From contig NZ_BJDL01000035.1 of the NCBI RefSeq assembly GCF_005405125.1, positions 1 to 32,671 on the forward strand: a stretch of DNA of 32,671 bases. The letters are read 5' to 3'. The position numbers and the translations under genes are program-made. The DNA comes from Lactiplantibacillus songbeiensis. GTDB lineage: Bacteria; Bacillota; Bacilli; Lactobacillales; Lactobacillaceae. The notes under the pieces were generated by a model. That model was not told the DNA's origin and made no database searches. It saw nothing but the letters and a program-made list of their open reading frames with translations. Position 1 is the stretch's first letter, and each line of letters starts with the position of its first letter. Positions 1,341 to 20,418 of this stretch are shown one piece after another.

Positions 1341-1379
1341 GCTAAAAACCCCTTCCAACCTTAACGTTCAATCACAAAA

Positions 1380-3586: not shown

Positions 3587-3727
3587 CAATTGAACTTGCT
3601 ACTCCAATTGATTGACTCCAAAAAGCTCAGCCTAACTCGTCGTATTAAACGGCTAGCTAAGCTGAGTTTTTGTGCCATCTAAACTTAATTCTGCCTGATT
3701 ACGCTTGGTGCTAGTTGGATTAAATTA

Positions 3728-3874
3728 CCACTCTGGTTGGACCAGAATCGGCCGGAACGTGGTGGCCGCGTTTGCGAGCCAAAAATCGGTCTCGCAAGCC
3801 GGGCTTTATCTAAGCCGAAAACCACGACTAAGATAAACGACACCACTGAGCCAATTCTGGCCCGCCCGTCGTTA
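3728..3874 (+). repeat. Structured intergenic element, copy 1a (type I)
   Basis: Begins CCACTCTGGTTGG and ends GCCCGCCCGTCGTTA. Stems: CCAGAAT with ATTCTGG; GTGGTG with CACCAC; TGCGAG with CTCGCA closing a CC...CGGT loop; and TTTATCT with AGATAAA, carrying the repeated CTAAG motif. Matches the copies at 5887, 13822 and 19865. Confidence 0.88.
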
Positions 3875-3935
3875 CATAACGGGAATCAAAAAATTAACAA
3901 TTGATTATTTAAAGTCCAGTTTATTTAGCTGATAA

Positions 3936-4071
3936 GTTGGATTCTAAAATGCTCAGCCGTGTCGTTGGCCTTAGTACGAGTGTTTTGCTCGGACTTAGGC
4001 CAAGGCCAGCTTTGAAGACCGTTCTTTGGCTTCAAAATGGCCCATAGCGTTCCAGCATTTTAGAATCCAAC
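3936..4071 (-). repeat. Structured intergenic element, copy 1b (diverged)
   Basis: Minus-oriented relative of the family. The outer stem is a perfect 18-bp pairing (3936-3953 with 4054-4071), unrelated in sequence to the outer stems of other copies. It keeps the inner TTGAAG/CTTCAA stem with the CC...CGGT loop, and the TTGGCCT/AGGCCAA stem with the CTAAG motif. Confidence 0.8.
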
Positions 4072-4114
4072 CGGCAGGCGGCAATCTCAACTAGCACCAA
4101 GCATGTCCGCTTAT

Positions 4115-5836
4115 CTATTGAACTTGTAAGCTAAAACCGCCGGCTGCCAATTGCTGGCCTTGCTGACCAACCGCTAAGACCGTCATCCCATCATTCGCAA
4201 TCGTTTGCGCCGTCGTGCCAAGGTTGAAGGTTCCCGTGACAGTCTGATCATCATTTTGCCGAATCAGGACTAAACAATCGCCTTCAATCTGCCAGCTCAA
4301 CGCACTCGTCGCCAAGAACTCAGTCTGTTGACGTCGCCATACTAATAAAGCGCGGACAAAACCGTACATTTCCGTCGTTACTGGTGCTGGTTGCCAAGAC
4401 ATACAACGTCGATTATCTGGATCAGGACCACCCGGCAAGCCAATTTCGGTCCCATAATAAATGCACGGACTCCCTGGCAATAACATCATTAACGTTAACG
4501 CTGCTTGTAGCCGTTGCGGCTGATTGCCCATCACTGTGATTGCCCGCGCCGTATCATGCGTATCTAGCGCATTGAGCATCACTTGTTGATTAGGCCGTGG
4601 GTATTGGGTCAATTGGAGATTCGTCTTACCGACATAATCTTTGAGCGTCAACTCATGATTGAATAACGCTAAGATTGGCCGGGTTAAAGGATAGTTCATG
4701 ACCGCATCAAACTGGCCATTGCCAATTAACGACGGACTACTATGCCAGGCCTCACCCAACAAATAAACATCTGGTTTGACCGCTCGTAAGGCCGCACAGA
4801 TTGCCCGCCACGTGCCATGGTCAACTTCATCGGCCACGTCAAAGCGCCAAGCATCGATATCCAATTGTGATAACCAATAAGTGGTAATTTCAATCAAATA
4901 ATCCCGAACAGCTGGATTCTGCGTCTTTAATTTTGGCATGCTGGCCGTGGTGCCAAAGGTTTCATAGTTTAACGTCCCCGTCTGTTGGTCGCGCCCAACT
5001 GGCCAATCATGAATATGGAACCAATCGGCGAACCGCGACTTAGCACCATTCTTCACCACGTCTTGCCATTGGGGTGACGCCGCGCCAAAGTGATTGAAAA
5101 CCGCATCCAACATGACATGCATTCCACGGGCATGCGCACCATCAACCAATTCTTGAAAATCTTGTTTCGTCCCAAAATGCGGATCAATTTCAAAGTGATC
5201 CAAGGTGTCATATTTGTGATTGGATGGCGACGTGAAGATGGGGCATAGATATAATCCGTTAATCCCTAAGTCGGCCAAATCATCTAAGTGATCAATAATA
5301 CCGCGTAAATCACCACCATAAAACGAGTCCGTCTTAACTGGCCCTTGTCCCCAAGGTTGGGTGTTTTGCGGATCATTGCTAACATCACCATTGGCAAAAC
5401 GTTCCGGAAAAATCTGATACCAGACGGTCGACTTGACCCAAGCGGGCGGTAATTCAGCATCACTGACATGTAAGTACGGCAGATGGAAATAATGTCCCGT
5501 TGTCGCCCAATTGGCAACCGTATCATCAAAGAACCCATCATCGCCATAACCAATCGTCGCACCATTTAAATCGGTCAGCTTAAAGGCATAAATTAACCGA
5601 TTCGTTGGCACAGTTACAGGCAGCGTCCAATATTGTTGCGCTTGCGTCGCTAACGTCGGCTGCAAATACACCTGTTGTAACGGTGTTCCCGCCTGCCACA
5701 AATACATATCGCCATAAATCAACTCCACCTGCTGCACACCATCTAAAGCCGTGCGCAGCCGCATCAATACCTGATGATCCGCTAGAATCGCGGTATCAGC
5801 GCTCTCGGCACAATGTGAAATTCCTGCTAATTGCAT
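4115..5836 (-). CDS. GH13 alpha-amylase, neopullulanase/maltogenic amylase type
   Basis: A 573-residue intracellular (no signal peptide) alpha-glucan hydrolase of the neopullulanase/cyclomaltodextrinase group. Residues 1-125 look like the N-terminal CBM34-type domain, followed by the (beta/alpha)8 barrel starting WYQIFPERFANGD (139-151). Conserved regions: DAVFNH (244-249), WRFDVADE with the nucleophile Asp333, GEAW with acid/base Glu362, and HDT with the transition-state Asp428. The C-terminal beta domain follows. Start: ATG with AAAGGAG 10 bases upstream. Such enzymes degrade imported maltodextrins or cyclodextrins. It stands alone here, with repeats on both sides; no sugar transporter or regulator adjoins it. 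Confidence 0.92.
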   Translation of the reverse strand: MQLAGISHCAESADTAILADHQVLMRLRTALDGVQQVELIYGDMYLWQAGTPLQQVYLQPTLATQAQQYWTLPVTVPTNRLIYAFKLTDLNGATIGYGDDGFFDDTVANWATTGHYFHLPYLHVSDAELPPAWVKSTVWYQIFPERFANGDVSNDPQNTQPWGQGPVKTDSFYGGDLRGIIDHLDDLADLGINGLYLCPIFTSPSNHKYDTLDHFEIDPHFGTKQDFQELVDGAHARGMHVMLDAVFNHFGAASPQWQDVVKNGAKSRFADWFHIHDWPVGRDQQTGTLNYETFGTTASMPKLKTQNPAVRDYLIEITTYWLSQLDIDAWRFDVADEVDHGTWRAICAALRAVKPDVYLLGEAWHSSPSLIGNGQFDAVMNYPLTRPILALFNHELTLKDYVGKTNLQLTQYPRPNQQVMLNALDTHDTARAITVMGNQPQRLQAALTLMMLLPGSPCIYYGTEIGLPGGPDPDNRRCMSWQPAPVTTEMYGFVRALLVWRRQQTEFLATSALSWQIEGDCLVLIRQNDDQTVTGTFNLGTTAQTIANDGMTVLAVGQQGQQLAAGGFSLQVQ

Positions 5837-5886
5837 GTTATGATTACTCCTTTTGTTTATAGTTATTATTGGTTAGATTAAGAGTA

Positions 5887-6035
5887 CCACTCTGGTTGGA
5901 CCAGCATCGGCTGGAACGTGGTGGCCACGTTTTCGAGCCATAAAGCGGTCTCGAAAGCCGGGCTTTTTCTAGGCTGGAAAATCACCAGCCAAGAAAAACG
6001 ACACCACTGAGCCAATGCTGGCCCGCCCGGCGTTA
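5887..6035 (+). repeat. Structured intergenic element, copy 2a (type I)
   Basis: Left member of the pair filling the 758-base gap between the divergent amylase and thrC genes. Stems: CCAGCAT/ATGCTGG, GTGGTG/CACCAC, TTCGAG/CTCGAA and TTTTTCT/AGAAAAA extended by GGCTGG/CCAGCC. The flank before it (GGTTAGATTA) matches other type I copies; CAACTAGTACTAAACACC, a decayed end-repeat, lies at about 6135. Bases 6036-6315 between the copies are AT-rich with no gene that I can see. Confidence 0.88.
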
Positions 6036-6315
6036 ATTAGCGAGTACTCACTTTATTTTGTATAAACCGCTAATTTCAAAAGTACTCAGTGATAATGTGC
6101 CAACATTTTGGCCTCAATTATCAAGTAATCAACCCAACTAGTACTAAACACCTATATGAAATCAGTCACGATTTTTCTTTTCATTGAACAGCTATAATTA
6201 TGTCATCAACGTCATCTAACCATCAGTTGACCACCAATAAGCCAGGCTACCCCGCTCATTTGATACCAACATTAATCCATTCCTAAATAATCTTGAATTA
6301 ACAGCAATAATAGCA

Positions 6316-6467
6316 CAGGGCGGGCTGGATGACGCTCAGTGGTGTCGTTTGACTTAGAGCGGGTGACTTTCCCCGGTCTTAGTCAAAGCCCGGCTTGTGA
6401 GACCGCTCTGTGGCTCACAAACGTGGCCACCACGTTCCAGCGTCAGTCCAGACCAACCGGAGCGGCA
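6316..6467 (-). repeat. Structured intergenic element, copy 2b (type II)
   Basis: Right, minus-oriented member. Read on the minus strand it starts GTTGCCGCTCCGGTTGG and ends GCCCGCCCTG. Stems: CTGGA..TGACGCT with AGCGTCA..TCCAG, GTGGTG/CACCAC, TGTGAG/CTCACA, and TTTGACT/AGTCAAA extended by CGGG/CCCG. Close in sequence to the copy at 14143-14297. The 71-codon open frame running across it is not credible as a gene. Confidence 0.88.
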
Positions 6468-6594
6468 ACAATCGCCAAAGTAGTAACCGGTTACATTTCA
6501 CAACAAGATTCCCGGTTATTTTCGTGGAAACGCCCCCGCTGGCTCGTAAATTAGTGTATCATTTAAAGCAAACTAAGTGAAAGGACGTTCATCT

Positions 6595-8088
6595 ATGGAA
6601 ACACTTTATCGCAGTACCCGTGAATCTGCAAGCCAGACCATGACGAGTTCACAAGCCGTGTTACAAGGCTTAACTCCTGATGGTGGTTTGTTTGTCCCCG
6701 TTACCTTGCCACAAGCTGACTTTGATTTTGACCAACTAGCTCAGGCCGATTATCAAACAGTCGCTTACGAGGTTTTAAAGCTCTTCTTTACTGATTACAC
6801 CGAAGCTGAACTTAAAGGCTGTATTCAAGCTGCCTATGGTGATCAGTTCGATGACCCAGCCATTGCCCCCGTTACGAAGCATGGCAAGCAATATTACTTA
6901 GAACTCTTCCATGGTCCCACAATTGCCTTCAAAGATTTGGCCTTGCAAATCTTACCGCATTTAATGACGACCGCCGCTAAAAAGAACCAGTTACAAGCTG
7001 AAGTCGTCATTTTAACAGCAACTTCGGGTGATACCGGTAAAGCCGCTATGGCTGGCTTCGCAGATGTCGACCAGACCAAGATCATCGTCTTCTACCCCCA
7101 AGCTGGGGTCAGCGCCATTCAGAAACAACAGATGGTGACCCAAGTTGGTGACAATACTTACGTGGTCGCGATTAATGGAAACTTTGATGACGCTCAGACC
7201 AAAGTCAAAGAACTGCTTAATGACAGCGAGTTACACGCCCAATTAGCAGCCAACCAATTCCAATTTTCAAGTGCCAACTCGATCAATATTGGCCGCCTAT
7301 TCCCACAAGTGGCTTACTACGTCTATGCGTACACCCAATTGATCAAGCAAGGCCAGCTTAAAAATGGTGATGAAGTCAACTTTAGTGTGCCAACCGGGAA
7401 CTTCGGCGACATCTTAGCCGGCTACTATGCCAAACAATTAGGTGTGCCGATTCATAAACTAATTTGTGCGTCAAACCGCAATAACGTGTTAACTGACTTC
7501 TTTAATACCGGCGTATACAACAAGAACCGGGAATTTTTCTTAACGAGTTCACCATCCATGGATATTTTAGTTTCCAGTAACTTGGAACGCCTAATCTTCT
7601 ATCTAACTGGTGAAGATCCGAAGCAAACAGCTAGTTTGATGGCTGATTTACAAACGAAAGGTGCATACACCTTGACCCCTGCCATGCGCCAAGCGGTTAC
7701 GGAATTCTGGGCGGGCTTCGTCACGGAAGGTCAAGATCAACACGAAATCCACCACTTGTATGCGCATCATCACTACACGATTGATCCACATACTGCCGTA
7801 GCCTCTGCCGTAGCGAAGCAATACCAAGCCGCCACGAAGGACCAGCGGCCGATGGTGGTCGTTTCAACCGCTAGTCCGTATAAATTCCCGAAAGCGGTCT
7901 TAGCAGCTATTACCGGACAAGACCATGACGTTGATGGCTTAGCGGCCGTCGACCAGTTGCACGCCTTGATTAAGACGCCCATTCCAGCAACCGTTGACAA
8001 TTTACGGACAGCGCCGGTACGCCATCATCAAGTTACGGAACCCGACGCCATGGCCGCTGCCATTAAGGCTATTTTAAAGCTTAACTAG
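6595..8088 (+). CDS. thrC: Threonine synthase
   Basis: A PLP enzyme converting O-phosphohomoserine to threonine and phosphate, the last step of threonine synthesis. At 497 residues it matches the longer threonine synthase class. The Schiff-base Lys is Lys113 in GPTIAFKDLALQ, and the phosphate/PLP loop is TATSGDTGKAA (141-151). The N-terminus METLYRSTRES..SSQAVLQGLTPDGGLFVP is typical. The ATG at 6595 follows AAAGGA by 9 bases; the in-frame GTG at 6577 lies upstream of that site and is rejected. It is followed after 14 bases by a HAD phosphatase with its own ribosome site, so the two are probably cotranscribed. hom and thrB are not in the window. Confidence 0.95.
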   Translation: METLYRSTRESASQTMTSSQAVLQGLTPDGGLFVPVTLPQADFDFDQLAQADYQTVAYEVLKLFFTDYTEAELKGCIQAAYGDQFDDPAIAPVTKHGKQYYLELFHGPTIAFKDLALQILPHLMTTAAKKNQLQAEVVILTATSGDTGKAAMAGFADVDQTKIIVFYPQAGVSAIQKQQMVTQVGDNTYVVAINGNFDDAQTKVKELLNDSELHAQLAANQFQFSSANSINIGRLFPQVAYYVYAYTQLIKQGQLKNGDEVNFSVPTGNFGDILAGYYAKQLGVPIHKLICASNRNNVLTDFFNTGVYNKNREFFLTSSPSMDILVSSNLERLIFYLTGEDPKQTASLMADLQTKGAYTLTPAMRQAVTEFWAGFVTEGQDQHEIHHLYAHHHYTIDPHTAVASAVAKQYQAATKDQRPMVVVSTASPYKFPKAVLAAITGQDHDVDGLAAVDQLHALIKTPIPATVDNLRTAPVRHHQVTEPDAMAAAIKAILKLN

Positions 8089-8102
8089 AAAGGACTTTTA
8101 GG

Positions 8103-8900
8103 ATGATTACGACAATTGCATTGGATTTAGATAATACGTTATTAACATCTGACAAGACGATTTCGCCGAAAACTGAAGCGGTGTTAAAGCAGCTCCACAC
8201 CGCTGGTAAACGGATTGTGCTCTGTACCGGCCGACCAATCAAGGCTATCCAACCTTTTCTAAAGCAATTAGATTTAGAGCAGCCAACTGACTTTGCCATT
8301 ACCTTCAATGGTGGCCTCGTGCAGCAAAATACGACCGGTGATGTTTTAGCTCGTAATAGTGTCACGAAGGCTGATATTCAGCCGCTGTACGACTACGCCC
8401 AAGCGCAACACTTTCCACTTGATGTCATCGACTTAAAGCAAGTCTATTCGTTAGTCGAACTTGGTAAGTCACCATACGAAGACTTCATGCGTGGCTTAAT
8501 GCCTTTTAAAGACGTGCATTTCGAAGACTTGCCTGCCGATGACCAATTCGGTAAAGTCGTGAGTGCTTATGAAGATGTGGCCAGCATCCAAGCCAACTTG
8601 CCACAGGCGGTCACGGATAAATTCCACGTCGTGCCTTCACGCCGTAATTTATTAGAATATTTACCAGCTGGTACCGATAAATCAGCCGGGTTAAAGGCCT
8701 TATTAGCGCACTTCAACGAAGACTTCAGTAACTTAATGGCCTTTGGTGATGAGGAAAATGACCTCGGTATGCTCAAAGCTGCCAAAGTCGGTGTCGCGAT
8801 GGCTAATGCCATTCCAAAGGTAAAAGCCGCGACAACTGATGACACCTTGAGTAACGATGACGATGGGGTGGCTGTTTTCTTGGAGAATTATTTTAAGTAG
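8103..8900 (+). CDS. Cof-type HAD family sugar-phosphate phosphatase
   Basis: A 265-residue HAD hydrolase of the Cof/YidA class (C2B cap). Motif I is DLDNTLL with catalytic Asp8 and Asp10, motif II is CTGRP (41-45), Lys193 is a candidate motif III, and motif IV is GDEEND (215-220). Members dephosphorylate sugar phosphates or flavin precursors; the substrate cannot be read from sequence. AAAGGA precedes the ATG. It lies 14 bases after thrC and before a terminator, so it is likely the second gene of that operon. No role in threonine synthesis is implied by the fold itself. Confidence 0.9.
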   Translation: MITTIALDLDNTLLTSDKTISPKTEAVLKQLHTAGKRIVLCTGRPIKAIQPFLKQLDLEQPTDFAITFNGGLVQQNTTGDVLARNSVTKADIQPLYDYAQAQHFPLDVIDLKQVYSLVELGKSPYEDFMRGLMPFKDVHFEDLPADDQFGKVVSAYEDVASIQANLPQAVTDKFHVVPSRRNLLEYLPAGTDKSAGLKALLAHFNEDFSNLMAFGDEENDLGMLKAAKVGVAMANAIPKVKAATTDDTLSNDDDGVAVFLENYFK

Positions 8901-8943
8901 ATCACCTTTAGCACACCGTTGCCAACTATTTAGATAACTACTG

Positions 8944-8980
8944 AAAGACCAACACGGCTTAGTCCCTTGTTGGTCTTTTT
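8944..8980 (+). terminator. Rho-independent terminator of the thrC-HAD operon
   Basis: An 11-bp perfect stem (8944-8954 with 8968-8978) followed by T residues. From here to the promoter at 9143 the DNA is AT-rich with no gene visible. Confidence 0.9.
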
Positions 8981-9142
8981 CTTATTCGCCCCAACAACTG
9001 ACATGCACCAGGACAATTAAACTTTTTTTCAAATAATAAAAAATTAATTTAAAACTATCACTATCATCTCGAACACCTGTCCGTTAAAATAAGCATTAGT
9101 ATCCTCTATTTGGCAAGTGGCATTTTAATTCAAACGTATTAA

Positions 9143-9170
9143 TTGACTATTATCATCTTGCTGATATGCT
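9143..9170 (+). promoter_or_regulatory. Promoter of the toxin-antitoxin operon
   Basis: TTGACT (9143-9148), a 16-base spacer and TATGCT (9165-9170). The implied transcript start near 9177 rules out the upstream in-frame ATG at 9166 as the antitoxin start. Confidence 0.6.
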
Positions 9171-9228
9171 TTATTTTAGGTGGGACACTCGGATTGAATT
9201 AAGTCTGATCATGAAAGTGAGGTTCACC

Positions 9229-9471
9229 ATGGAAGAACAAATCAACTTTTCACTTGACGCTGATAAAGCCCAAAAATTACATCTTATTTTTAAATCAGCC
9301 GGTCTAACCCCAGAACAAGCTTTTACACTTTTCGCAGATAAAACCATTGCTACTGGCAAATTACCATTTGATGCTGAAAGACCAAATAATCGTTTACAAA
9401 AAGCACTCACTAGCAAAGATTATATTGCCTTCACAGACCCCCAAGCTGGTTTACGTTGGCTCAATGAGTGA
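9229..9471 (+). CDS. dinJ: RelB/DinJ family antitoxin
   Basis: An 80-residue antitoxin. It has the RelB/DinJ plan: a short N-terminal beta strand (EEQINFSLDADKA) of a ribbon-helix-helix DNA-binding domain, the conserved GLTPEQAFTLFADKTIATGKLPF segment, then a C-terminal tail for wrapping the toxin. The start at 9229 has GTGAGG 6 bases upstream. Its stop overlaps the toxin start by 8 bases (ATGAGTGA), which implies translational coupling. Such antitoxins usually repress their own promoter with the toxin as corepressor. Confidence 0.85.
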   Translation: MEEQINFSLDADKAQKLHLIFKSAGLTPEQAFTLFADKTIATGKLPFDAERPNNRLQKALTSKDYIAFTDPQAGLRWLNE

Positions 9472-9751
9472 ACGATATATCTACTATCCTAAATACGAAC
9501 GCCAATTTAAAAAGCATTACCGTAAAATGATCCGCAGTGGTCAATATCACGCTAAAGATTTTGAAATTATTTACGATAAACTATTAAAAAATGAACAGCT
9601 CGAAGCTAAATATCAAGACCACAAATTAGAAAACATGTCTAAAAATGATCGTGATTTGCACATCTATCCAGACTGGATTCTGATTTATCGTTATGAAGAT
9701 GACTTCGTCGCTTTTGTTGATATCGGTACCCATTCAGACTTGTTTAAATAA
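9464..9751 (+). CDS. yafQ: YafQ-type mRNA interferase toxin (RelE superfamily)
   Basis: A 95-residue basic toxin with the ATG inside the end of the antitoxin gene. Residues His53, His66, Asp70, Trp71, His90 and Phe94 line up with E. coli YafQ His50, His63, Asp67, Trp68, His87 and Phe91 at a constant offset of three; the C-terminal IGTHSDLF is the family signature. Family members are ribosome-dependent endoribonucleases that cut translated mRNA, in E. coli mainly at AAA codons. All catalytic positions are kept, so it is likely active. A 20-bp terminator follows. An in-frame reading that starts inside the antitoxin gene is rejected. Confidence 0.88.
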   Translation: MSERYIYYPKYERQFKKHYRKMIRSGQYHAKDFEIIYDKLLKNEQLEAKYQDHKLENMSKNDRDLHIYPDWILIYRYEDDFVAFVDIGTHSDLFK

Positions 9752-9794
9752 ACCCAAACAAGACTAATGCCCCCTTACCACATCCCTAACACCT

Positions 9795-9847
9795 AAAAAT
9801 GGTCAACAATTACTGACACATCCAAGTAATTGTTGACCATTTTTTTG
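9795..9847. terminator. Strong bidirectional terminator between convergent genes
   Basis: A perfect 20-bp stem (9795-9814 with 9825-9844), loop of 10, with a T run on the + side and A residues on the other. It serves both the toxin operon and the leftward acetyltransferase operon. Confidence 0.92.
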
Positions 9848-9873
9848 TTTCATTAATCGTTGATTTGCTAAGC

Positions 9874-10472
9874 CTATTCCGTAAAGCTCATCCCCGTAAA
9901 CCCAGTCCGATCCACTGCAGTAATTGGCCGCAACACCTGACACGGATTTCCAGCTGCTAGGACATTACTTGGCAGGTCGTGCGTCACCACACTGCCAGCG
10001 CCAACAATCGTCTTGTCCCTAATCGTCACGCCCGGCAAAACAGTGACGTTGGCCGCTAACCAACAACGATCACCAATTGTAATCGGTTTGGCAATACAAC
10101 CGCCATTTTGCCGTTCCGTTGCATCGAATAAATGGTTACTCGTATACAAGCCAACTTTCGGACCAAATAAGACATGATCACCAATCGTAATCGGGGCACC
10201 ATCCAACATCACACAATCATAATTAGCGTAAAACTGGTCACCGACATGAATATTACGTCCGAACTCAACCCGGAAGTTAGGATTAACAAACGGCTGTTGG
10301 CCCGCACTGCCCACTAATTGCGAAAAATTGGCACTTGTTTTATGGGATCAGTGATGGCATTCAAGTGAGTCGTCACGGTTGTTGCGGTGTTACGCGCGGT
10401 AATCAAGTCAGCATCCAAATCTAAATACGGCTGACCAGTCGCCATATAAGCAAATTTTTCAGCTAAGTTCAT
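9874..10472 (-). pseudogene. Maltose/galactoside O-acetyltransferase, frameshifted
   Basis: The gene starts at the ATG at 10472, three bases after the upstream Nudix stop, and reads 52 residues (MNLAEKFAYMATGQPYLDLD...) of the Mac N-terminal domain before a TAG at 10316-10314. The hexapeptide-repeat acetyltransferase domain then continues in another frame from 10314 to 9874 (LVGSAGQQPFVNPNF..., with TSNHLFD carrying the likely catalytic His). One missing base near 10317-10322 (CGCAATTA where CGCCAATTA is expected) explains the break. Intact, it would be about 200 residues and would transfer acetyl from acetyl-CoA to sugars. The downstream part could start at the GTG at 10314, but no ribosome site precedes it. 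Either a recent mutation or a sequencing error. Confidence 0.87.
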
Positions 10473-10475
10473 CCG

Positions 10476-11039
10476 CTACGCCTCACGTAAAAAGTTCAAA
10501 TACCACGTCAAGGCACAGACCGCCTGAGCCGACCGAATCTTACCAGCCCGCAATAAATCAATCACTTGGCGCAGCGGCACCAACTGATTATTCACGAATT
10601 CATCGGCATCGAAGTGACGTTCGCCATGCTCAGTCGGATCAATATGAGTCAAAATCAAGTTCACCGTTTCACTCGTAAAGCCTTCAGACGACGTAATCGC
10701 CGTCATCACTTGGCTATCATGAGCAATATAACCCGTCTCTTCTTGTAATTCGCGGGTTGCCGCCACTAACGGTGCTTCACCAGCATTAATCAATCCCGCT
10801 GGTAAGCTAATCGTTTCGGCATTCAAACCAACCCGATATTCTGTATTCACGACAACTTGGTCATCATCGGTAATCGCTAAAATCGTAACTGCATCGCCAT
10901 GCTTGATTAAATCCCGATCAACCGTTAACCCATCCGGCGTTTTGATGGTTTGCTTGACCAAGTCAAAAATTGGTCCCTGATACACCGGTTGCTCATCTAA
11001 AATCTGACCGGTCCGCCCGGCTTTATCTAATGCATCCAT
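10476..11039 (-). CDS. Nudix hydrolase, ADP-ribose pyrophosphatase-like
   Basis: A 187-residue protein with a complete Nudix box: Gly82, Glu88, then Arg96-Glu97...Glu100-Glu101-x-Gly103 (RELQEETGY). Length and N-terminal layout fit ADP-ribose pyrophosphatases, which split ADP-ribose to AMP and ribose 5-phosphate. The ATG at 11039 has GAGGTC upstream; an in-frame GTG at 11054 overlaps that site and is rejected. It lies 18 bases after the secreted-protein gene and 3 bases before the broken acetyltransferase, so it is inside an operon. Exact substrate is inferred. Confidence 0.88.
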   Translation of the reverse strand: MDALDKAGRTGQILDEQPVYQGPIFDLVKQTIKTPDGLTVDRDLIKHGDAVTILAITDDDQVVVNTEYRVGLNAETISLPAGLINAGEAPLVAATRELQEETGYIAHDSQVMTAITSSEGFTSETVNLILTHIDPTEHGERHFDADEFVNNQLVPLRQVIDLLRAGKIRSAQAVCALTWYLNFLREA

Positions 11040-11057
11040 TTTTATTGACCTCACTTT

Positions 11058-12383: not shown

Positions 12384-12418
12384 GTTCGTATCCCCATCTA
12401 TTTTAAAGTTAGTCTCCG

Positions 12419-12781: not shown

Positions 12782-12789
12782 TTTTAACC

Positions 12790-13536
12790 CTACTTTTCTA
12801 ACCAACCACCGTCAACTGGCATGACCGTTCCATGAATATAATCGGCGTGGCGACTCGCTAAGAACAGCGTCAGATCTGCCACTTCATGCGGTTGCGCCCA
12901 GCGTTTGGCAGGCGTCTCACCGGCAACCCAGGTCGCCATATGGCCGTCACCCGCAAAGTCAGCCGCATTCATCGGCGTTTCAATCGCCCCCGGTGCAATA
13001 CAGTTGGCTCGAATGCCCTGATCTGCATAATCCAAATCAAGTTGCTTCGTATAACCGATAATCGCGTGCTTGGCCGCGGTATACGCGGCCCCACCACCAC
13101 CAGCAACTAGCCCAGCAATCGAGGCCATGTTCACAAAGACCCCATGTTGTTGCTTCAGCATCGCCGGTAACACTGTATTCGTCACGATAAATTGACTTGT
13201 TAAATCCGTCGCTAACAAATCTTGCCACGCCGCTAAGTTCGTCTCGAGGGTTGGCCGATAACCATCCAACTTTCCCGCGGTATTGCAGACAATCGCTGGC
13301 GTTCCTAATTGTTGCATACCAGCGTAAATAGCCGCCGTTAATGCCGTAGCATCGGTAACATCGGCCACCTGATAGCTTAACTGCTCGGTCACCGCTAACG
13401 CTGTGGGCCGTGGTTGAATATCAATCGCAATCACCCGGGCGCGCTGCGTCAAAAAGGCTTGGGCTTGCTCCAAACCAATTCCAGACGCGGCACCAGTTAC
13501 CAGCACCGTTTGCCCGGTAAATTCATCAAATTGCAT
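12790..13536 (-). CDS. Short-chain dehydrogenase/reductase
   Basis: A 248-residue classical SDR. NAD(P)-binding TGAASGIG at 14-21, CNTAG at 84-88, catalytic Ser139, Tyr152 and Lys156 (YTAAK), C-terminal GTVMPVDGGW. An acidic residue at the end of the second strand (IDIQP) suggests NAD preference. The ATG overlaps the preceding stop by one base (TAATG), indicating translational coupling to the DUF2829 gene. The substrate cannot be told; FabG-like or acetoin/sugar alcohol oxidoreductases are possible. Confidence 0.9.
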   Translation of the reverse strand: MQFDEFTGQTVLVTGAASGIGLEQAQAFLTQRARVIAIDIQPRPTALAVTEQLSYQVADVTDATALTAAIYAGMQQLGTPAIVCNTAGKLDGYRPTLETNLAAWQDLLATDLTSQFIVTNTVLPAMLKQQHGVFVNMASIAGLVAGGGGAAYTAAKHAIIGYTKQLDLDYADQGIRANCIAPGAIETPMNAADFAGDGHMATWVAGETPAKRWAQPHEVADLTLFLASRHADYIHGTVMPVDGGWLEK

Positions 13537-13757
13537 TAGGCAACCAACTGCCAATCTTCGGCTAAAATATCACAATCAGTTGGTGACCATAAGCTGAAGG
13601 CTTCATCCGCGGTCTTGATCAAGAAGTATGGGTTCAATACATCCCCTTGATACGTGGTTGTCGGTTGCAGGACCACATACAATTCGGTTCCTTCCCAACC
13701 AGTCCGAACGGCTTTTTTGCCAGCCTTTAATTCAGGTAAAATTGCTTCAAATGTCAT
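13536..13757 (-). CDS. DUF2829 (Tad2-like) small protein
   Basis: A 73-residue protein matching DUF2829 end to end: FEAILPELKAGKKAVRTGWEG, then NPYFLIKTAD and DILAEDWQLV. This family includes Tad2, a phage protein that sequesters the cyclic ADP-ribose signal of Thoeris defence; many chromosomal members have no known role. GGAGGA precedes the ATG and a TATAAT lies at 13800-13795. It is the first gene of the leftward operon with SDR, HIT and Nudix enzymes, two of which belong to families that cleave ADP-ribose or dinucleotides. No phage genes are near. Family is confident; the ligand is inference. Confidence 0.85.
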   Translation of the reverse strand: MTFEAILPELKAGKKAVRTGWEGTELYVVLQPTTTYQGDVLNPYFLIKTADEAFSLWSPTDCDILAEDWQLVA

Positions 13758-13794
13758 GATGATTCCTCCATTAATTTTGATTTATTTTTTCACG

Positions 13795-13800
13795 ATTATA
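13795..13800 (-). promoter_or_regulatory. -10 element for the DUF2829-SDR-HIT operon
   Basis: A perfect TATAAT on the minus strand, 38 bases before the ATG. The matching -35 would fall in the repeat's end sequence (CTAGTTAGATTAAAA, 13804-13818), and no good -35 is seen. Confidence 0.5.
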
Positions 13801-13821
13801 TTGCTAGTTAGATTAAAATTG

Positions 13822-13968
13822 CCACTCTGGTTGGCCCAGAATTGTCTGGAACGTGGTGCCCGTGTTTGGAAGCCAAGGAACGGTCTTCCAAGCCGGGCTT
13901 TATCTAAGTCGAAAACCACGACTAAGATAAACGACACCACTGAGCCAATTCTAGTCCGCCCGTCGTTA
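13822..13968 (+). repeat. Structured intergenic element, copy 3a (type I)
   Basis: Left member of the third pair, in the 713-base gap between the divergent DUF2829 and mupG genes. Stems: CAGAATT/AATTCTA, GTGGTG/CACCAC, TGGAAG/CTTCCA and TTTATCT/AGATAAA extended by GTCG/CGAC. Preceded by CTAGTTAGATTA and followed at about 14048 by CAACTAGCACC, the same end motifs as in the first composite. Bases 13969-14142 hold no gene that I can see. Confidence 0.88.
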
Positions 13969-14142
13969 ATGACTGCTAGTTATAACTGAGTTTCGTATTG
14001 ACTTTTAACCAGCTATTTTAAGTAGAAAACATCTAGTCACAACGTCAACTAGCACCAAATGTATCATCTGTATATAACTATCATTGACTGACACAGCAAA
14101 CATGCTGGTCAACATATCGATTATCAATATACACCCTAATTA

Positions 14143-14297
14143 GCGCAGGTTGATCTGGATGATGTTCAGTGGTGTCGTTTGACTTAGGTGAGTGACCTTC
14201 TCAGCTTAGTCAAAGCCCGGCTTTTGAGACCGCCCTTCGGCTCAAAAACGCGGCCACCACGTTCCAGCATCAATCCAGACCAACCGGAGCGACAACC
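14143..14297 (-). repeat. Structured intergenic element, copy 3b (type II)
   Basis: Right, minus-oriented member, closely related to the copy at 6316-6467. Stems: CTGGA..TGATG with CATCA..TCCAG, GTGGTG/CACCAC, TTTGAG/CTCAAA, and TTTGACT/AGTCAAA extended by TGAG/CTCA. The type I-left, type II-right order is thus the same as in the second composite. Confidence 0.88.
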
Positions 14298-14423
14298 TAA
14301 GCAAATTCAACAGTACTTATGTCAAAATCGTATCATAATCCCCCACTGATTAACAGCGAACTCGCATGTCTAAAATTTGTTGGTACCAATTTACCGTAAT
14401 TGCTGGTATGGACCAATCATCTG

Positions 14424-14432
14424 TGCGATAAT
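14424..14432 (+). promoter_or_regulatory. Possible extended -10 promoter of mupG
   Basis: TGCGATAAT, an extended -10 form, sits 38 bases before the mupG ATG. No convincing -35 is seen. Confidence 0.4.
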
Positions 14433-14470
14433 GTAAGCGAATACAGCAATTGCAATGGAGGAATTTTATT

Positions 14471-15562
14471 ATGAGTAAACTGGGAGTATCCGTTTATCCA
14501 GAACGGTCAACTTTTGAAAAGGATGCCGCTTATTTGGACCTGGCTGCCAAGTATGGCTACCAACGTGTCTTCACTTCGTTACTAGAAATCAAAGGCGATG
14601 CCGATGAAGTTGTCACTAACTTCAAACGTGTCATTACTTACGCGAACAAATTAGGCTTACAAGTCATGGTTGATGTGAACCCGGGCTTATTCAAACAACT
14701 TGGCGTGTCTTACGATGACTTATCCTTTTTCCATGACCTCGGTGCTTGGGGTGTCCGCTTAGACCTCGGCTTTACTGGTGCCGAAGAATCTCGGATGACG
14801 CATAACCCATATGGCATCAAGATTGAAGTCAACATGTCGAAAGGGACGCACTATGTGGATACGATTATGGATTATTCACCGGTTAAAGATAATCTACTTG
14901 GATCACATAACTTTTATCCACAACAGTATACCGGTCTCGGTTATGATTACTTCGTCCAGACTTCGACTCAATATCGGCAATACGGCTTAAACACCGCCGC
15001 TTTCGTCTCATCAAATGACGCGACTTATGGGCCTTGGCCAATGCAAGATGGCCTCTGTACATTAGAACAACACCGAGGCTTGCCACTTGCCGCACAAGTT
15101 CAACATTTGAAGATGACAGGACTCATTGACGATGTGCTCATCGCTAACGCTTATGCCAGTGAAGCTGAACTTAAAGCAGCCAGTGACGTCTTCTTCAGCC
15201 CCTACCCCGCCTTACATGTTGAAACGGTCAGCGATATCACAGCAGCGGAAAAAGCAGTACTGTTCGATCAACCGCAAACGTATCGTGGCGACTTCTCAGA
15301 TTACGTCATTCGCTCCTCCGAAACGCGGGTAATCTATAAAGATTGCGACTTTCCAGCCCATGCCACGACCGATGTTAAACGCGGCGACCTGTTAATCGAC
15401 AATGATGACTTTGGCCAATACAAAGGTGAACTCCAGATTGCCCGGCGTGACTTTGAAAATACTGGCCGCATCAATGTTGTTGGCCATGTCGTCGCCAGTG
15501 ACGCCCAATGTTTGGACTTATTAGCACCTTGGGCCGACTTCAAGCTCGTCGCCGCTAAGTAA
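14471..15562 (+). CDS. mupG: MupG (DUF871) 6-phospho-N-acetylmuramidase
   Basis: A 363-residue protein of the DUF871/MupG family. The N-terminal TIM barrel begins MSKLGVSVYPERSTFEKD, with VMVDVNPGL and GVRLDLGF strands; a smaller C-terminal beta domain starts around GDFSDYVIRSSETR. Characterised MupG hydrolyses MurNAc-6-phosphate-GlcNAc in the cytoplasm during cell-wall recycling. Start: ATG with GGAGGA 9 bases upstream; an in-frame codon at 14450 precedes that site. An Eis-like acetyltransferase follows after 16 bases. The MurNAc PTS and the MurQ etherase usually found with it are absent here, so disaccharide uptake must be encoded elsewhere. Confidence 0.87.
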   Translation: MSKLGVSVYPERSTFEKDAAYLDLAAKYGYQRVFTSLLEIKGDADEVVTNFKRVITYANKLGLQVMVDVNPGLFKQLGVSYDDLSFFHDLGAWGVRLDLGFTGAEESRMTHNPYGIKIEVNMSKGTHYVDTIMDYSPVKDNLLGSHNFYPQQYTGLGYDYFVQTSTQYRQYGLNTAAFVSSNDATYGPWPMQDGLCTLEQHRGLPLAAQVQHLKMTGLIDDVLIANAYASEAELKAASDVFFSPYPALHVETVSDITAAEKAVLFDQPQTYRGDFSDYVIRSSETRVIYKDCDFPAHATTDVKRGDLLIDNDDFGQYKGELQIARRDFENTGRINVVGHVVASDAQCLDLLAPWADFKLVAAK

Positions 15563-15578
15563 AAAGGAGGAGTACTGG

Positions 15579-16760
15579 ATGGCTGAAAATTTACGTTTAA
15601 CTAGTGATGCCGACCGCGATGCATTCTATCAACTGTATCAATATGCCTTCAATAATCATGATAGTGCTGCACGACGGGCCTTCTTTATGGATCGTTATCA
15701 ACACGGTTGGATTTATGGCTTGCACGCTAATCAACAACTCGTCAGTGGCCTGTATAGTTTGCCATTTCAAGTCAACTTTCATGGCGTCACCTATCCGATG
15801 AACGGCATCGGGGATGTCATGAGTGCACCCGAATACTCGGGCCGTGGCGGCGCTGGTAAGTTACTTACCGCTGCGTTACAAGAAATGGCCGCTAAGCAGA
15901 TTCCGTTGTCCTATCTCGCGCCATTTTCTTATGCTTATTACCGTAAATTCGGTTACGAACAAGTCTTTAATCACACGCAACACACGATTGCGGCCCACGA
16001 TCTCCCGGTTATTAAGCCCTACGACTTGTCTGGGACCATCACCCGTTACGGCAATGAAGGTCTAGTCCTAATTAATGACTTTTACGCGGCGCAACCAATC
16101 AATCAGCGTGGTGGCATGATTCGTTCTGACTGGTGGTTACATTACTTGACGTTAAAACATGCTTGGTCCGTCGCGATTTATCGCAATGCCGACCAACAAA
16201 TTGAAGGTTATCTCATCTACGATCGCCAAGCTACCACCTTTGCCATTCAGGAATGGGCCGCTAGCACCCCGACTGCTCAGCAACGACTAGCTAACTTTGT
16301 GACCAAACACGGCACGACTTTTCAAACGTTTAGTTACGAAGCGCCAAGTGAAGCACCGTTAGCGGATTTGTTCGAAAATCCATACGCCCTCCACGTCACC
16401 ACGACCCCGTATATGATGGCGCGCATCGTGTTATTGCATGACTTTTTAAAACGCTACCCGTTTACTGGCGATATCACGCCTATCCGCTTAGCGATAACCG
16501 ATGCGACGCTACCGGCTAACCAAGGCATCTGGCAATTACAGGTCACGCACGGTCAAGTCACTTTAAACCGTGTGACTGCCGACTTAACCAGCACTAGCGA
16601 CTTACAACTCTCGATTCAGCAACTCACCAAAGCACTGTTTGGCGCCCGGAGCTTGGCTAGTGCTTGGCACTATGGTCAACTCACCGGCGACCTCGCTGCA
16701 GCCCAACGACTAGATGCGAGTTTGGTTCATGACAAACCAGCGCTAATCGATTACTTCTAA
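15579..16760 (+). CDS. Eis-like GNAT acetyltransferase
   Basis: A 393-residue protein with Eis architecture: an N-terminal GNAT domain (acetyl-CoA loop around SGRGGAGKLL, about 87-96, after GIGDVMSAPEY), a second GNAT-like domain from about 150, and an SCP2-like C-terminal domain ending DYF, where Eis proteins carry a functional C-terminal carboxylate. AAGGAGG precedes the ATG. Eis relatives acetylate amines at various positions; the natural substrate in lactobacilli is unknown. The tight link to mupG hints at an amino-sugar or wall-fragment substrate, which is inference. Confidence 0.86.
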   Translation: MAENLRLTSDADRDAFYQLYQYAFNNHDSAARRAFFMDRYQHGWIYGLHANQQLVSGLYSLPFQVNFHGVTYPMNGIGDVMSAPEYSGRGGAGKLLTAALQEMAAKQIPLSYLAPFSYAYYRKFGYEQVFNHTQHTIAAHDLPVIKPYDLSGTITRYGNEGLVLINDFYAAQPINQRGGMIRSDWWLHYLTLKHAWSVAIYRNADQQIEGYLIYDRQATTFAIQEWAASTPTAQQRLANFVTKHGTTFQTFSYEAPSEAPLADLFENPYALHVTTTPYMMARIVLLHDFLKRYPFTGDITPIRLAITDATLPANQGIWQLQVTHGQVTLNRVTADLTSTSDLQLSIQQLTKALFGARSLASAWHYGQLTGDLAAAQRLDASLVHDKPALIDYF

Positions 16761-16761
16761 C

Positions 16762-16803
16762 TAAAAACCACCGACCTACTGAATACGTGGTCGGTGGTTT
16801 TTA
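16762..16803. terminator. Bidirectional terminator
   Basis: A perfect 15-bp stem (16762-16776 with 16789-16803). It ends the mupG-acetyltransferase operon, and the stop codon of the leftward small membrane gene lies inside its right arm. Confidence 0.9.
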
Positions 16804-16968
16804 GTGCTGATGCCATAATTGATAACTCATCCAAGCTAAGCCGATTAGCAATAGCCCGAAAACGCCATTCAACAGCAAATTATCCGCTGGTATGCGAATA
16901 TTGGTTATCCAAAAGATTAGAATGATCATTAAAGCAATGAGACTCCCAATTTGAATCCTTCTATGCAT
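16801..16968 (-). CDS. Small two-helix membrane protein
   Basis: A 55-residue protein, MHRRIQIGSLIALM..., with two hydrophobic helices (about 6-24 and 30-50) and short charged ends. I prefer the ATG at 16968, which follows GGGGGA by 9 bases, over the longer reading from 17025 that would place polar residues and a Cys ahead of it without a ribosome site. Function unknown. Confidence 0.6.
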   Translation of the reverse strand: MHRRIQIGSLIALMIILIFWITNIRIPADNLLLNGVFGLLLIGLAWMSYQLWHQH

Positions 16969-17076
16969 GATCCAAGTCCCCCACAGATTGAATTTTGACC
17001 TAATTATGCAAGCTAACCAAGTCAAATACCAGCCGAATCAGACTAACTATGTCAAATCTTAACGATTATTCGCAGA

Positions 17077-17115
17077 CTAAAAGCGGCACGCCTTCACTGG
17101 TCGCGCCGCTTTTAG
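17077..17115 (-). terminator. Terminator of the 34-codon ORF
   Basis: An 11-bp perfect stem, CTAAAAGCGGC (17077-17087) with GCCGCTTTTAG (17105-17115), nine bases past the stop of the small ORF at 17124. Confidence 0.72.
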
Positions 17116-17123
17116 CATCAACT

Positions 17124-17228
17124 TTAACGTCGTAATTTAAACAAAAAGAAAATCACAGCTGCCAGTGCTAAAATCACTAGCGCCGTCACACCTAAAAATA
17201 AGAGATCCCCGTAATAGATGCCGTTCAT
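17124..17228 (-). CDS. Very small membrane protein (34 residues)
   Basis: Reads MNGIYYGDLLFLGVTALVIL followed by a hydrophobic run and KLRR. It is one transmembrane helix with a short acidic N-terminus and a basic C-terminus, so the N-terminus is probably outside. GGAGG lies 9 bases before the ATG, a promoter at 17262-17290 and a terminator at 17077-17115 frame it, and it fits no larger gene. This gene context argues that it is real despite its size. It could be a small regulatory membrane peptide or a type I toxin-like peptide; no antisense RNA partner was recognised. Confidence 0.65.
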   Translation of the reverse strand: MNGIYYGDLLFLGVTALVILALAAVIFFLFKLRR

Positions 17229-17261
17229 CGCCGTTGTCCTCCAAGGTTTTGACTTACCTTT

Positions 17262-17290
17262 AGCATAACGCAAAAGCAGTCGCTAACCAA
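17262..17290 (-). promoter_or_regulatory. Promoter of the 34-codon ORF
   Basis: Minus-strand TTGGTT (17290-17285), a 17-base spacer and TATGCT (17267-17262). The -35 lies inside the hairpin that terminates the upstream beta-glucosidase gene. Confidence 0.5.
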
Positions 17291-17322
17291 CCTGAAAATC
17301 AGGCTGCCTAACGACTGCTTTT
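17272..17322 (-). terminator. Terminator of the beta-glucoside operon
   Basis: A long hairpin pairs 17272-17282 (AAAAGCAGTCG) with 17312-17322 (CGACTGCTTTT), with an inner CCTGA/TCAGG stem. It lies 22 bases past the stop of the 6-phospho-beta-glucosidase. Confidence 0.8.
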
Positions 17323-17343
17323 TACAATTTCAGCTTCTTATAA

Positions 17344-18888
<1,545 letters not shown>

Positions 18889-18938
18889 CTAATCCCGTAG
18901 CACTAGTCGCGGTCCAAAATTAACGGCAGTTCTAATCA

Positions 18939-19283
18939 TTACTTTTCAGCGTCTAAACGCCGGTATAAATCAACAATTTCACCAGCTAAGTCGCGGAACG
19001 TAATCGCGTTCATGATATGATCTTGTGAATGAACAAGGAGCAATGAGACATGGGTATGCTTGCCAGAAGCCTCATCAGTTAACATTGAGGTCTGAGCATT
19101 GTGTGCTTCAGTCAAGAAGTTATCAGCTTCCTTCAACTTGGCATCAGCCTTGTCAAAGTCGCCTTCCTTAGCGGCCCGAATCGCTTCAAAAGCGGAACTT
19201 TTAGCGTTCCCACCATTGACGATCAATCCCATGATTGTTTCTAAACTTGCGTCGGTTTCTGTTGCTTGATTTTCTTCTGCCAT
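18939..19283 (-). CDS. PTS lactose/cellobiose-type IIA component
   Basis: A 114-residue IIA protein of the lactose/chitobiose family. The phosphorylated His is His85 in LLLVHSQDHIM, with Asp88 as the metal-binding trimer residue; the usual Ala after the active His is Ser here. It takes phosphate from HPr and passes it to IIB. The ATG at 19283 is used because AAAGGA touches the upstream ATG at 19295. The acidic N-terminal extension EENQATETD is normal for the family. It lies between IIB and the glucosidase. Confidence 0.93.
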   Translation of the reverse strand: MAEENQATETDASLETIMGLIVNGGNAKSSAFEAIRAAKEGDFDKADAKLKEADNFLTEAHNAQTSMLTDEASGKHTHVSLLLVHSQDHIMNAITFRDLAGEIVDLYRRLDAEK

Positions 19284-19375
19284 TAATTTATACATCCTTT
19301 TTAATTTTTTAGTTCAACCGTCATCGCCGGATTTGGACGATCACGTTGATTGGTACTTGCTAGGTTAATTGATAA

Positions 19376-19699
19376 CTATTTTGCGGCTTTGGCCATTGAG
19401 GCTTCGGCTTCTTTTAAGACTTTTTCACCATTCATCATGCCATAATCTTGCATGTTGATGACTTCAACAGGAATATCAGTGACTTTCTTTTGGAAGTCAC
19501 TTAACATATAGCGAATTTGTGGTCCAAGCATTAAGATATCAGGGTTCTTTTCTTTTAGCTTGTTATCGGCATCACTGGCAGCGGTTGCAAAAATATCTGC
19601 ATCAATCCCGTCAGCTTCCGCTGCTTTTTGCATCTTTGAAACTAATAATGAGGTCGACATTCCGGCAGAACAGACCAACATAATTGTTTTTTCAGCCAT
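19376..19699 (-). CDS. PTS cellobiose-type IIB component
   Basis: A 107-residue IIB protein. The phosphocysteine is Cys10 in MLVCSAGMSTS, followed by the fold typical of the cellobiose/chitobiose IIB family (LGPQIRYM at about 58-65). It takes phosphate from IIA and gives it to the sugar bound in IIC. AGGAGC lies 9 bases before the ATG at 19699. No IIC permease gene follows in the operon or elsewhere in the window. Confidence 0.93.
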   Translation of the reverse strand: MAEKTIMLVCSAGMSTSLLVSKMQKAAEADGIDADIFATAASDADNKLKEKNPDILMLGPQIRYMLSDFQKKVTDIPVEVINMQDYGMMNGEKVLKEAEASMAKAAK

Positions 19700-19753
19700 A
19701 ATCAACACGCTCCTAAATTCTTTTTTGTTTTTATTACTTTTAACGGTTGCATT

Positions 19754-19768
19754 TTAAACCGCTTTCAT
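19754..19768 (-). promoter_or_regulatory. Catabolite-response element (cre)
   Basis: Minus-strand ATGAAAGCGGTTTAA matches the consensus WTGNAANCGNWWNCA at all but one fixed position. It lies just downstream of the -10, where CcpA would block the operon when preferred sugars are present. Confidence 0.65.
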
Positions 19769-19778
19769 TACAATTAAG

Positions 19779-19807
19779 ATTATAAGTCATGGGTACAAAT
19801 TAAACAA
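19779..19807 (-). promoter_or_regulatory. Promoter of the PTS IIB-IIA-glucosidase operon
   Basis: Minus-strand TTGTTT (19807-19802), a 17-base spacer and a perfect TATAAT (19784-19779). Confidence 0.65.
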
Positions 19808-19864
19808 GTCTGAATAAATACTTTTAGCAAAAATTTTCAGATGGCACGCGTTGAACGTAACTTG

Positions 19865-20012
19865 CCACTCTGGTTGGGCCAGCATTGGCTGGAACTTGGT
19901 GGTCGCGTTTGGAAGCCAAAGGGCGGTCTTCCAAGCCGGGCTTTATCTAAGTCGAAAAACCACGACTAAGATAAACGACACCACTGAGCCAATGTTGGCC
20001 CGCCCGGCGTTA
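19865..20012 (+). repeat. Structured intergenic element, copy 4a (type I)
   Basis: Left member of the fourth pair, between the divergent PTS operon and GntR gene. Stems: GGGCCAGCATTGGCT with AGCCAATGTTGGCCC (the most complete outer stem), TGGAAG/CTTCCA and TTTATCT/AGATAAA. A decayed end motif AACTAGCACCTAGCACC follows at about 20068. Bases 20013-20204 hold no gene that I can see. Confidence 0.88.
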
Positions 20013-20204
20013 ATTAACGACTAGTTATGCTTAATCCGGTAACTTAGCCAAGAACTTGGCAGCATTTTAACTAGCACCTAGCACCACCTAAACTAACTTA
20101 TTAGTGAGACAATTAGTCCATCACTAATTATCGACACATCAGACTAACACCCGGGTGACTGATTTATTTTTTAAAAGCAACTTTTACCAATTAACAGTCG
20201 TAGT

Positions 20205-20357
20205 GACCAAGATAGTCGCCGTGTCGCGTCACTTGACCGGGTGATTTCCCCGATTTAGTGACTGGGCCGCCTTTAAAGACGTGGGTTATCGGCTTTGAAG
20301 CGCCTCGAAGACCGCTCCTCGGGCTTCCAGGCTCGCCCCACCGCGACTGTCTTGGTC
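20205..20357 (-). repeat. Structured intergenic element, copy 4b (highly diverged)
   Basis: Minus-oriented. The outer stem GACCAAGACAGTCGC pairs with GCGACTATCTTGGTC at the other end, with a sequence unlike all other copies. The inner GAAG...CTTC stem with a CGGT loop is retained, and an extra hairpin of about 35 bases is inserted before the last stem. It ends 61 bases before the GntR start. Confidence 0.7.
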
Positions 20358-20418
20358 AACGAAGACGATCAAGGTACCACTAATCAATACACCATCAACC
20401 AAGAAAGCAGTGATTTTT

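Follow-up and report, generated by a model that had tools for sequence, protein, structure and literature searches.

Paired, folded intergenic modules of Lactobacillaceae are probably non-autonomous mobile elements

Contig NZ_BJDL01000035.1 of Lactiplantibacillus songbeiensis (assembly GCF_005405125.1), whose 32,671 nucleotides form the window analysed here (positions 1 to 32,671, forward strand), carries eight copies of a folded intergenic element of about 150 nt that we call a module. A first-pass annotation, made from the letters of the window alone, had described these eight copies and attributed their covarying stems to selection on a folded RNA or on cruciform DNA rather than to passive repeat decay. 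We found that the fold covaries far beyond chance, both within this genome and across genera, and that neighbouring modules nearly always face each other. We consider it likely that the family consists of non-autonomous mobile intergenic elements of the Lactobacillaceae, one form of which (the A-B form) bears the inverted repeats of IS982-family insertion sequences, and we favour the view that the fold is needed, as DNA, for spread.

Results

The fold and its covariation

A covariance model (R1; 162 positions, 47 pairs) recovered all eight elements of the window, seven of them with E ≤ 1e-41 and the eighth as a divergent copy (Table 1). R1 was built from 56 copies, all from the L. songbeiensis genome and including the first seven elements of the window, which score 146-170 bits against the model that they helped to train; the 56 were obtained from 103 full copies, reduced to 61 by a 90% identity filter and then by 5 short or damaged ones. 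In the modelled fold, stem P1 (about 12 bp) is followed by an internal loop (GGAAC/TG), stem P2 and a three-way junction bearing hairpins P3 and P4. The covarying stem pairs quoted in the first-pass annotation are present in the window copies, and P3 closes a CC...CGGT loop. In two details the copies depart from that description: P2 is exactly GTGGTG/CACCAC on both arms in 5/8 elements, with TTGGTG in e7 and other differences in e2 and e8, and the CTAAG motif of P4, with its A·A mismatch, is usual on both arms, giving way to CTAGG/CCAAG in e3 and to an altered form in e8.

Across the 56 copies, 91.6% of cells are paired, and 352 cells have changed on both sides, compared with 112.5 after shuffling and 16-83 in slid controls. 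We also assembled a cross-genus set of 75 matches (71 distinct) from 55 loci, mostly from other genera. Its 71 distinct rows contain 806 both-side changes, versus 215 shuffled and 82-202 slid, in an alignment that was fitted to R1 and so leans towards the fold, and whose search left out the weakest loci; such changes occur at 43 of the 47 pairs. We then counted, on a FastTree phylogeny of the same rows, those branches that alter both partners of a pair yet retain Watson-Crick pairing. There were 240, as opposed to 7.8 ± 2.8 in simulations without covariation (maximum 16 over 200 simulations), and 35 of the 47 pairs exceeded every simulation. The unpaired motifs and junctions are likewise conserved across genera. 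Together, these results confirm that the covarying fold is real, with support far beyond chance; the lack of significant covariation that the annotation had named as grounds for abandoning its proposal was not seen. Its statement that the elements belong to no named RNA class also held: an Rfam search of the window at gathering thresholds finds only a T-box, elsewhere, and a permissive search of positions 3600-6600 returned two sub-threshold matches alone (E 1 and 3.6).

Copy number, location and distribution

The modules are numerous. R1 matched 138 times in 832,671 bases, and 277 matches were aligned in the 1.71 Mb sampled of the 3.03-Mb L. songbeiensis genome; extrapolation from that sample gives about 490 copies per genome, fragments and a few copies cut by stretch ends being counted. 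They are also intergenic: 229 of 236 modules of at least 100 nt overlap long open reading frames (ORFs) over less than half their length, though ORFs make up 82% of the sequence. Their orientation relative to the flanking genes is random. For the 218 modules with neighbours on both sides, the gaps are 59% tandem, 21% divergent and 20% convergent against a background of 62, 20 and 18%.

Within the genus, 19 of 21 genomes contain R1 matches; the two that do not (G018 and G019) are among the smallest, at 2.6 Mb. Modules were found in 84 of the 301 genomes and 13 of the 40 genera of a Lactobacillaceae sample (E ≤ 1e-4). At the level of the order, 11 of 295 genomes match under strict filters and all 11 are Lactobacillaceae, the number of genomes from outside the family not being shown. 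Relatives with matches include L. dongliensis, L. nangangensis, L. garii and Loigolactobacillus zhaoyuanensis; the threonine synthase of the window is 98% identical to the Lactiplantibacillus dongliensis protein, which suggests that the two species are close. With e1 as query, plasmid and phage collections gave no match at E ≤ 1e-5, records from very near genomes perhaps being excluded there. One IMG/VR contig holds an exact module 17-mer (L335:685-701), which could lie in the host flank of a prophage.

Paired architecture and inverted repeats

In L. songbeiensis, 92 of the 97 pairs of neighbouring modules no more than 700 bp apart are convergent (plus then minus), as are all pairs less than 1 kb apart among the matches listed for two other genera (17/17 and 6/6). 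We sorted modules into types A, B and C by a rough text rule that leaves many of them untyped. An A-B pair often forms a unit of about 380-405 bp bounded by the inverted repeats ACGCTTGGTGCTAGTTG. With at most 3 mismatches in 17 allowed, this IS982-type repeat lies on the 5' side of 70/162 A, 36/51 B and 30/91 untyped modules, and of 0/43 C modules and 1/347 random positions. Since C modules never carry it, the module extends more widely than IS982, and C modules may come from a unit that is older or that moves in another way. There are 181 repeat sites in this genome and 179 in a relative (G004), and 0-21 across 19 other members of the genus.

We next compared the flanks of 67 repeat pairs spanning at most 450 bp, a set in which one site may serve several pairs. 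A subset shows target duplications: 15 pairs agree at 6 or more of the 8 bases, 10 at 7 or more and four at all eight; shifted flanks gave 1 at 6 or more and 0 at 7 or more. The four perfect duplications are in the sampled part of G004, and none was found among the sampled repeat pairs of this genome. The A-B form therefore has the features of a miniature inverted-repeat transposable element (MITE): shared terminal inverted repeats, target duplication, a length of a few hundred bp, many copies and no transposase gene. In the window, e1/e2 is the only intact A-B unit, and no ORF of at least 80 aa lies inside it; e3 and e7 show at most remnants of repeats, seen by eye, and no recognisable repeat lies to the left of e5. 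The first-pass annotation had allowed that its proposal would fall if the elements matched transposon ends whose inverted repeats explained all pairings. The elements e1 and e2 do lie inside a unit with terminal inverted repeats, but these repeats flank the fold and leave its pairings unexplained.

Other sequences accompany modules beyond the A-B form. In G287, from another genus, 9 of 16 outer flanks resemble at least one other, compared with 0 of 13 in G144; at the G287 loci L157, L267, L273, L276, L279, L282, L285 and L291, about 35 bases are partly common to the outer flanks of one end type and do not resemble the IS982 repeat. G287 may thus possess a different kind of outer repeat, which could be the inverted repeat of a different mover. 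Five short matches in our set (L032:14036-14117, L046:13082-13162, L204:11059-11140, L206:6850-6931 and L209:1416-1497) cover model positions of about 41-122 and lack P1, and four of the five are adjoined by GCAGACCTGCAGCC...GGTCTGCAGG. Some of these matches, facing a type C module, may be the partner type proper to C. At the G144 loci L272 and L283 a second repeated hairpin, GCATCTATTCAG...CTGAATAGATGC, was seen by eye in the spacer of module pairs or next to them.

IS982 as the probable mover of the A-B form

In the sister species G010, three pairs of the same inverted repeats as those of the A-B units stand exactly 958 bp apart. In two of these 958-bp elements an IS982-family transposase frame runs uninterrupted over 290 codons (222.7 and 219.4 bits against a cut-off of 130); the third is decayed, its pieces matching the IS982 model in the order 15-108, 110-150 and 155-196. 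A working source of transposase was not found in the L. songbeiensis genome itself, where the single IS982 match has nine stops; G004 has an uninterrupted IS982 frame. Longer units with matching repeats and a target duplication were absent from 2.6 Mb of this genome and G004, and a BLAST search of those stretches with the IS982 piece of G010 found nothing. We conclude that A-B units are probably moved in trans by an IS982-family transposase, and that IS982 fits the A-B form in this clade and leaves the rest of the family unexplained.

Orthologous copies and turnover

The behaviour of resident copies was assessed against G004, which is 91.6% identical over 182 kb of long matches. Of the 277 copies, 66 were anchored on both sides in G004 and 42 could be aligned, two of which were set aside as conversions. 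The remaining 40 show 87 single-arm differences between paired and unpaired states (46 A·C, 29 G·T and 12 other) versus 7 double changes that keep pairing. Divergence is 2.9% in stems, 3.7% in loops and 5.3% in flanks (32 copies with flanks less than 15% diverged). The two pairs set aside carry many linked double changes: in L062:16152-16310 versus L214, P3 and P4 have changed together into a type present in a paralogue. We read both as conversion by a paralogue.

Strong covariation between lineages together with weak compensation within copies is the pattern expected of a mobile lineage under selection for its fold: resident copies seem to decay, and spreading lineages keep the fold. The first-pass annotation had set selection against passive repeat decay. 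Both seem to be true, at different levels, for the lineages do maintain the fold, but most differences in resident copies are uncompensated.

Individual loci also differ in content among close species. The gap between the GH13 gene and thrC, which holds e3 and e4 here, contains in L. dongliensis an e3 and a B unit, both truncated, together with an A/C hybrid, and is short and empty in the sequences read from L. daowaiensis, L. nangangensis, L. pingfangensis and L. fabifermentans. BLAST positions in L080, L082, L085, L086 and L126 agree with a short empty gap; L084 rests on a 20-base match, and L083 has no match on the GH13 side. At the e1/e2 locus, 6 of 21 stretches contain R1 modules, of differing kinds and in some cases outside the gap itself. 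By eye, the length differences between L062 and L214 and between L069 and L198 fall between short direct repeats (CGGTT, GTTGG); the poor L031 and first L069 alignments were excluded as empty sites.

DNA or RNA

In families that act as RNA, G·U substitutes for G-C and A-U. We therefore counted mismatches on the modelled strand in columns with more than 75% Watson-Crick pairs, and found G·T 74 times versus A·C 163 times in this genome and 61 versus 114 times in G004; among the excluded columns are one dominated by T·G (81/116 copies) and one with many C·A (50). In mostly paired columns of the cross-genus set the counts were 27 and 50. With the orthologues, A·C exceeds G·T by about 1.6-2.2 to 1 in every set counted. 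As a control, G·U accounts for 7.0% of stem pairs in a set of 32 distinct tRNAs taken from the loci analysed, those of other organisms among them, in an output that may show only standard pairs. Because G·T is rarer than A·C, an RNA read from the modelled strand is unlikely, which narrows the earlier choice between folded RNA and cruciform DNA. The A·C excess corresponds to G·U on the opposite strand, and could reflect either an RNA from that strand or strand-biased mutation.

Features of the window

The coordinates of the modules and repeats are collected in Table 1. Elsewhere in the window, a T-box leader (Rfam RF00230, 96.8 bits) occupies positions 31295-31533 (+), upstream of a gene at 31568-32596 that appears by eye to be ketopantoate-reductase-like. 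A second T-box-like leader, recognised by eye from the motif GGTGGCACC, lies at 1370-1640 (-), upstream of an aminotransferase-like gene at 138-1358; Rfam does not report it at the gathering threshold. Two overlapping small ORFs at 9166-9751 (+) resemble, by eye, an antitoxin and a RelE/YafQ-type toxin.

Table 1. Modules and inverted repeats in the 32,671-nt window. Scores are for model R1; mismatches are counted over the 17 positions of the IS982-type repeat.
Feature	Position	Strand	Observations
Intact A-B composite (MITE, 404 bp)	3701..4104	.	Inverted repeats 3701-3717 and 4088-4104 enclose e1 and e2
Module e1, type A	3725..3881	+	159.6 bits; IS982-type repeat on 5' side, 0 mismatches
Module e2, type B	3919..4084	-	146.3 bits; IS982-type repeat on 5' side, 1 mismatch
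Module e3, type A	5884..6042	+	170.2 bits; no recognisable repeat on 5' side (best 7/17 mismatches)
Possible degenerate inverted repeat right of e3	6135..6151	-	By eye, 5/17 mismatches; beyond the limit of the 3-mismatch scan
Module e4, type C	6304..6468	-	162.2 bits
Module e5, type A	13819..13975	+	151.4 bits
Inverted repeat right of e5	14046..14062	-	Scan, 2/17 mismatches; no adjoining B module
Module e6, type C	14134..14295	-	159.1 bits
Module e7, type A	19862..20019	+	163.8 bits
Possible degenerate inverted repeat right of e7	20068..20084	-	By eye, 4/17 mismatches; not found by scan
Module e8, divergent type with insertion	20185..20371	-	39.9 bits, E 4.3e-9

Discussion

Our results point to a family of elements that probably spreads between genes without a transposase of its own. 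The usual unit consists of two modules of about 150 nt that face each other with their 5' ends outward. Units of the A-B form, which bear IS982-family terminal inverted repeats, would be mobilised in trans and so give rise to 8-bp target duplications; other copies have no such repeats or only a single module, and a few appear to have exchanged their inner parts with paralogues. We propose that the fold is needed for spread, acting as a hairpin or a cruciform in DNA that is single-stranded or supercoiled, where it may be recognised by a transposase or by a step linked to replication. If only copies with intact arms seed new ones, covariation would build up between lineages without the upkeep of any single copy. 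Within this reading of the modules as mobile elements, we lean slightly towards folded DNA as the active form.

Several observations weigh against this interpretation. The evidence is drawn from sequence, and no protein is known to bind the fold. The composite of the window has no recognisable 8-bp target duplication and is one of 52 repeat pairs, among the 67, that have no duplication of at least 6 of 8 bases. IS982-type repeats are missing from the C modules and from the flanks of modules in two other genera (G287 0/16, G144 0/13; best 7-11 of 17 mismatches), and IS982 therefore cannot be the general mover. A role as purely double-stranded DNA would not lead one to expect the asymmetry seen in the excess of A·C. 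Among orthologous copies, the single-arm differences are unpolarised, so that a break and a repair look the same, and the 29 that are G·T would be tolerable to an RNA. Double changes, at 7, outnumber the one or two expected, on a rough estimate, from independent changes, and modules diverge less than their flanks, which could indicate weak upkeep or gene conversion; this brake relative to the flanks and the small excess of double changes could each be caused by selection, conversion or alignment.

The elements could instead be selfish and use their fold as an RNA from the strand opposite the modelled one, for example to protect a neighbouring mRNA or to be bound by a mobility protein. The surplus of A·C, which would be G·U in such an RNA, is consistent with this idea. 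We nevertheless regard it as unlikely: wobble read either way amounts to about 1-3.4% of cells, below the tRNA figure, and the modules have no sense orientation to genes.

It is less likely still that the paired changes stem from copying, by arm-to-arm template switching or by gene conversion from paralogues, and not from selection on the fold. The linked double changes in 2 of the 42 orthologous pairs are of the kind that copying would produce, and G·T intermediates are rare, but the ratio of 87 to 7 in the other 40 copies indicates that arm-to-arm copying is infrequent in resident copies, and copying between arms leaves unexplained the conservation of unpaired motifs and junctions across genera.

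The strong conserved fold, the intergenic location and the somewhat lower divergence of modules than of flanks might also suggest a family of host regulatory RNAs or terminators, each copy serving the gene beside it. We consider this improbable, for the elements do not look like host RNAs: their orientation and gap class are random, where a cis-regulatory RNA would show a fixed orientation; they are gained, lost and partially deleted among close species; single-arm differences far exceed compensated ones; and two members of the genus have no match. A REP/BIME-like system, in which a Y1 (HUH) transposase recognises single-stranded hairpins, would accommodate inverted pairs, many intergenic copies and foldability as single-stranded DNA, but is very improbable, as the 8-bp duplications and IS982 inverted repeats of the A-B form suit a DDE transposase. 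We rejected a link to Y1_Tnp on distribution: of the 21 genomes of the genus, the 8 that lack the domain all contain modules, and the two that contain no modules both have it.

How, then, does this family of probable mobile elements compare with known systems, as portrayed in the available text of the papers cited? REP/BIME repeats are palindromic, intergenic and often paired, with REPs of 20-40 bp (PMC3733652); the likeness in palindromy, location between genes and pairing ends at the modules' size of about 150 nt and at the Y1 distribution just given. In the Bacillus cereus group, bcr1 (147-167 bp; PMC2267715) is intergenic, has many copies and a conserved fold, and is described as MITE-like (PMC3446304, PMC2267715). 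Our modules resemble bcr1 in location, copy number, size and conserved fold; they differ, on a comparison of descriptions only, in belonging to another order, in their convergent pairs and many genera, and in the IS982 partner of one form. EFAR and Efa-1, also from the Lactobacillales, we take to be the same element. EFAR of enterococci is counted among bacterial MITEs (PMC3733652); in E. faecalis, Efa-1 is a folded intergenic repeat of 163 bp (PMC2267715). The A-B form has its MITE character in common with EFAR, and the modules share intergenic folding with Efa-1; as described, however, Efa-1 is an adjacent pair of stem-loops (PMC2267715) and the module has a three-way junction, and the order-wide R1 matches under strict filters given above are confined to Lactobacillaceae. 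The Cardinium endosymbiont has a non-autonomous MITE of about 240 bp with IS982-family inverted repeats and no transposase gene (PMC9769881). The A-B form shares all three of these last properties, but the phrase 'secondary structure' does not occur in the available text of that paper (PMC9769881), and here the module family extends beyond the IS982 repeats. Folded repeats of L. johnsonii were covered by a survey from 2008, and a search of its available text for plantarum was empty (PMC2267715). We found no paper describing the family by title or abstract start, a search outside which much literature lies and which does not show the family to be unpublished; bcr1, EFAR/Efa-1 and IS982-derived MITEs come closest in kind.

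In our classification the A-B form is an IS982-derived MITE, and the module family is a variant among the structured mobile repeats of bacteria. The family stands out by its breadth across genera, its near-invariant convergent pairing and the retention of the fold while the outer repeats differ. A bolder and rather unlikely possibility is that the convergent pair of folded modules is an ancient mobile unit of the Lactobacillaceae, whose ends are branched DNA recognised as a shape by a putative protein or replication step, and which has passed between movers, with IS982 repeats gained in a single clade and there by just some A and B modules. If this is true, transposon ends selected as a three-way-junction DNA fold would represent a novel type of end.

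In bacteria, the covariation of structured intergenic repeats often leads to their being proposed as regulatory RNAs. Here covariation looks like the mark of selection during spread and not of host function, a warning for RNA discovery that relies on covariation only. With roughly 490 copies in 3 Mb, the family occupies much of the intergenic DNA of these lactobacilli, and its combination of a fold, inverted repeats and an IS982 partner offers a testable system for the role of DNA shape in transposition.

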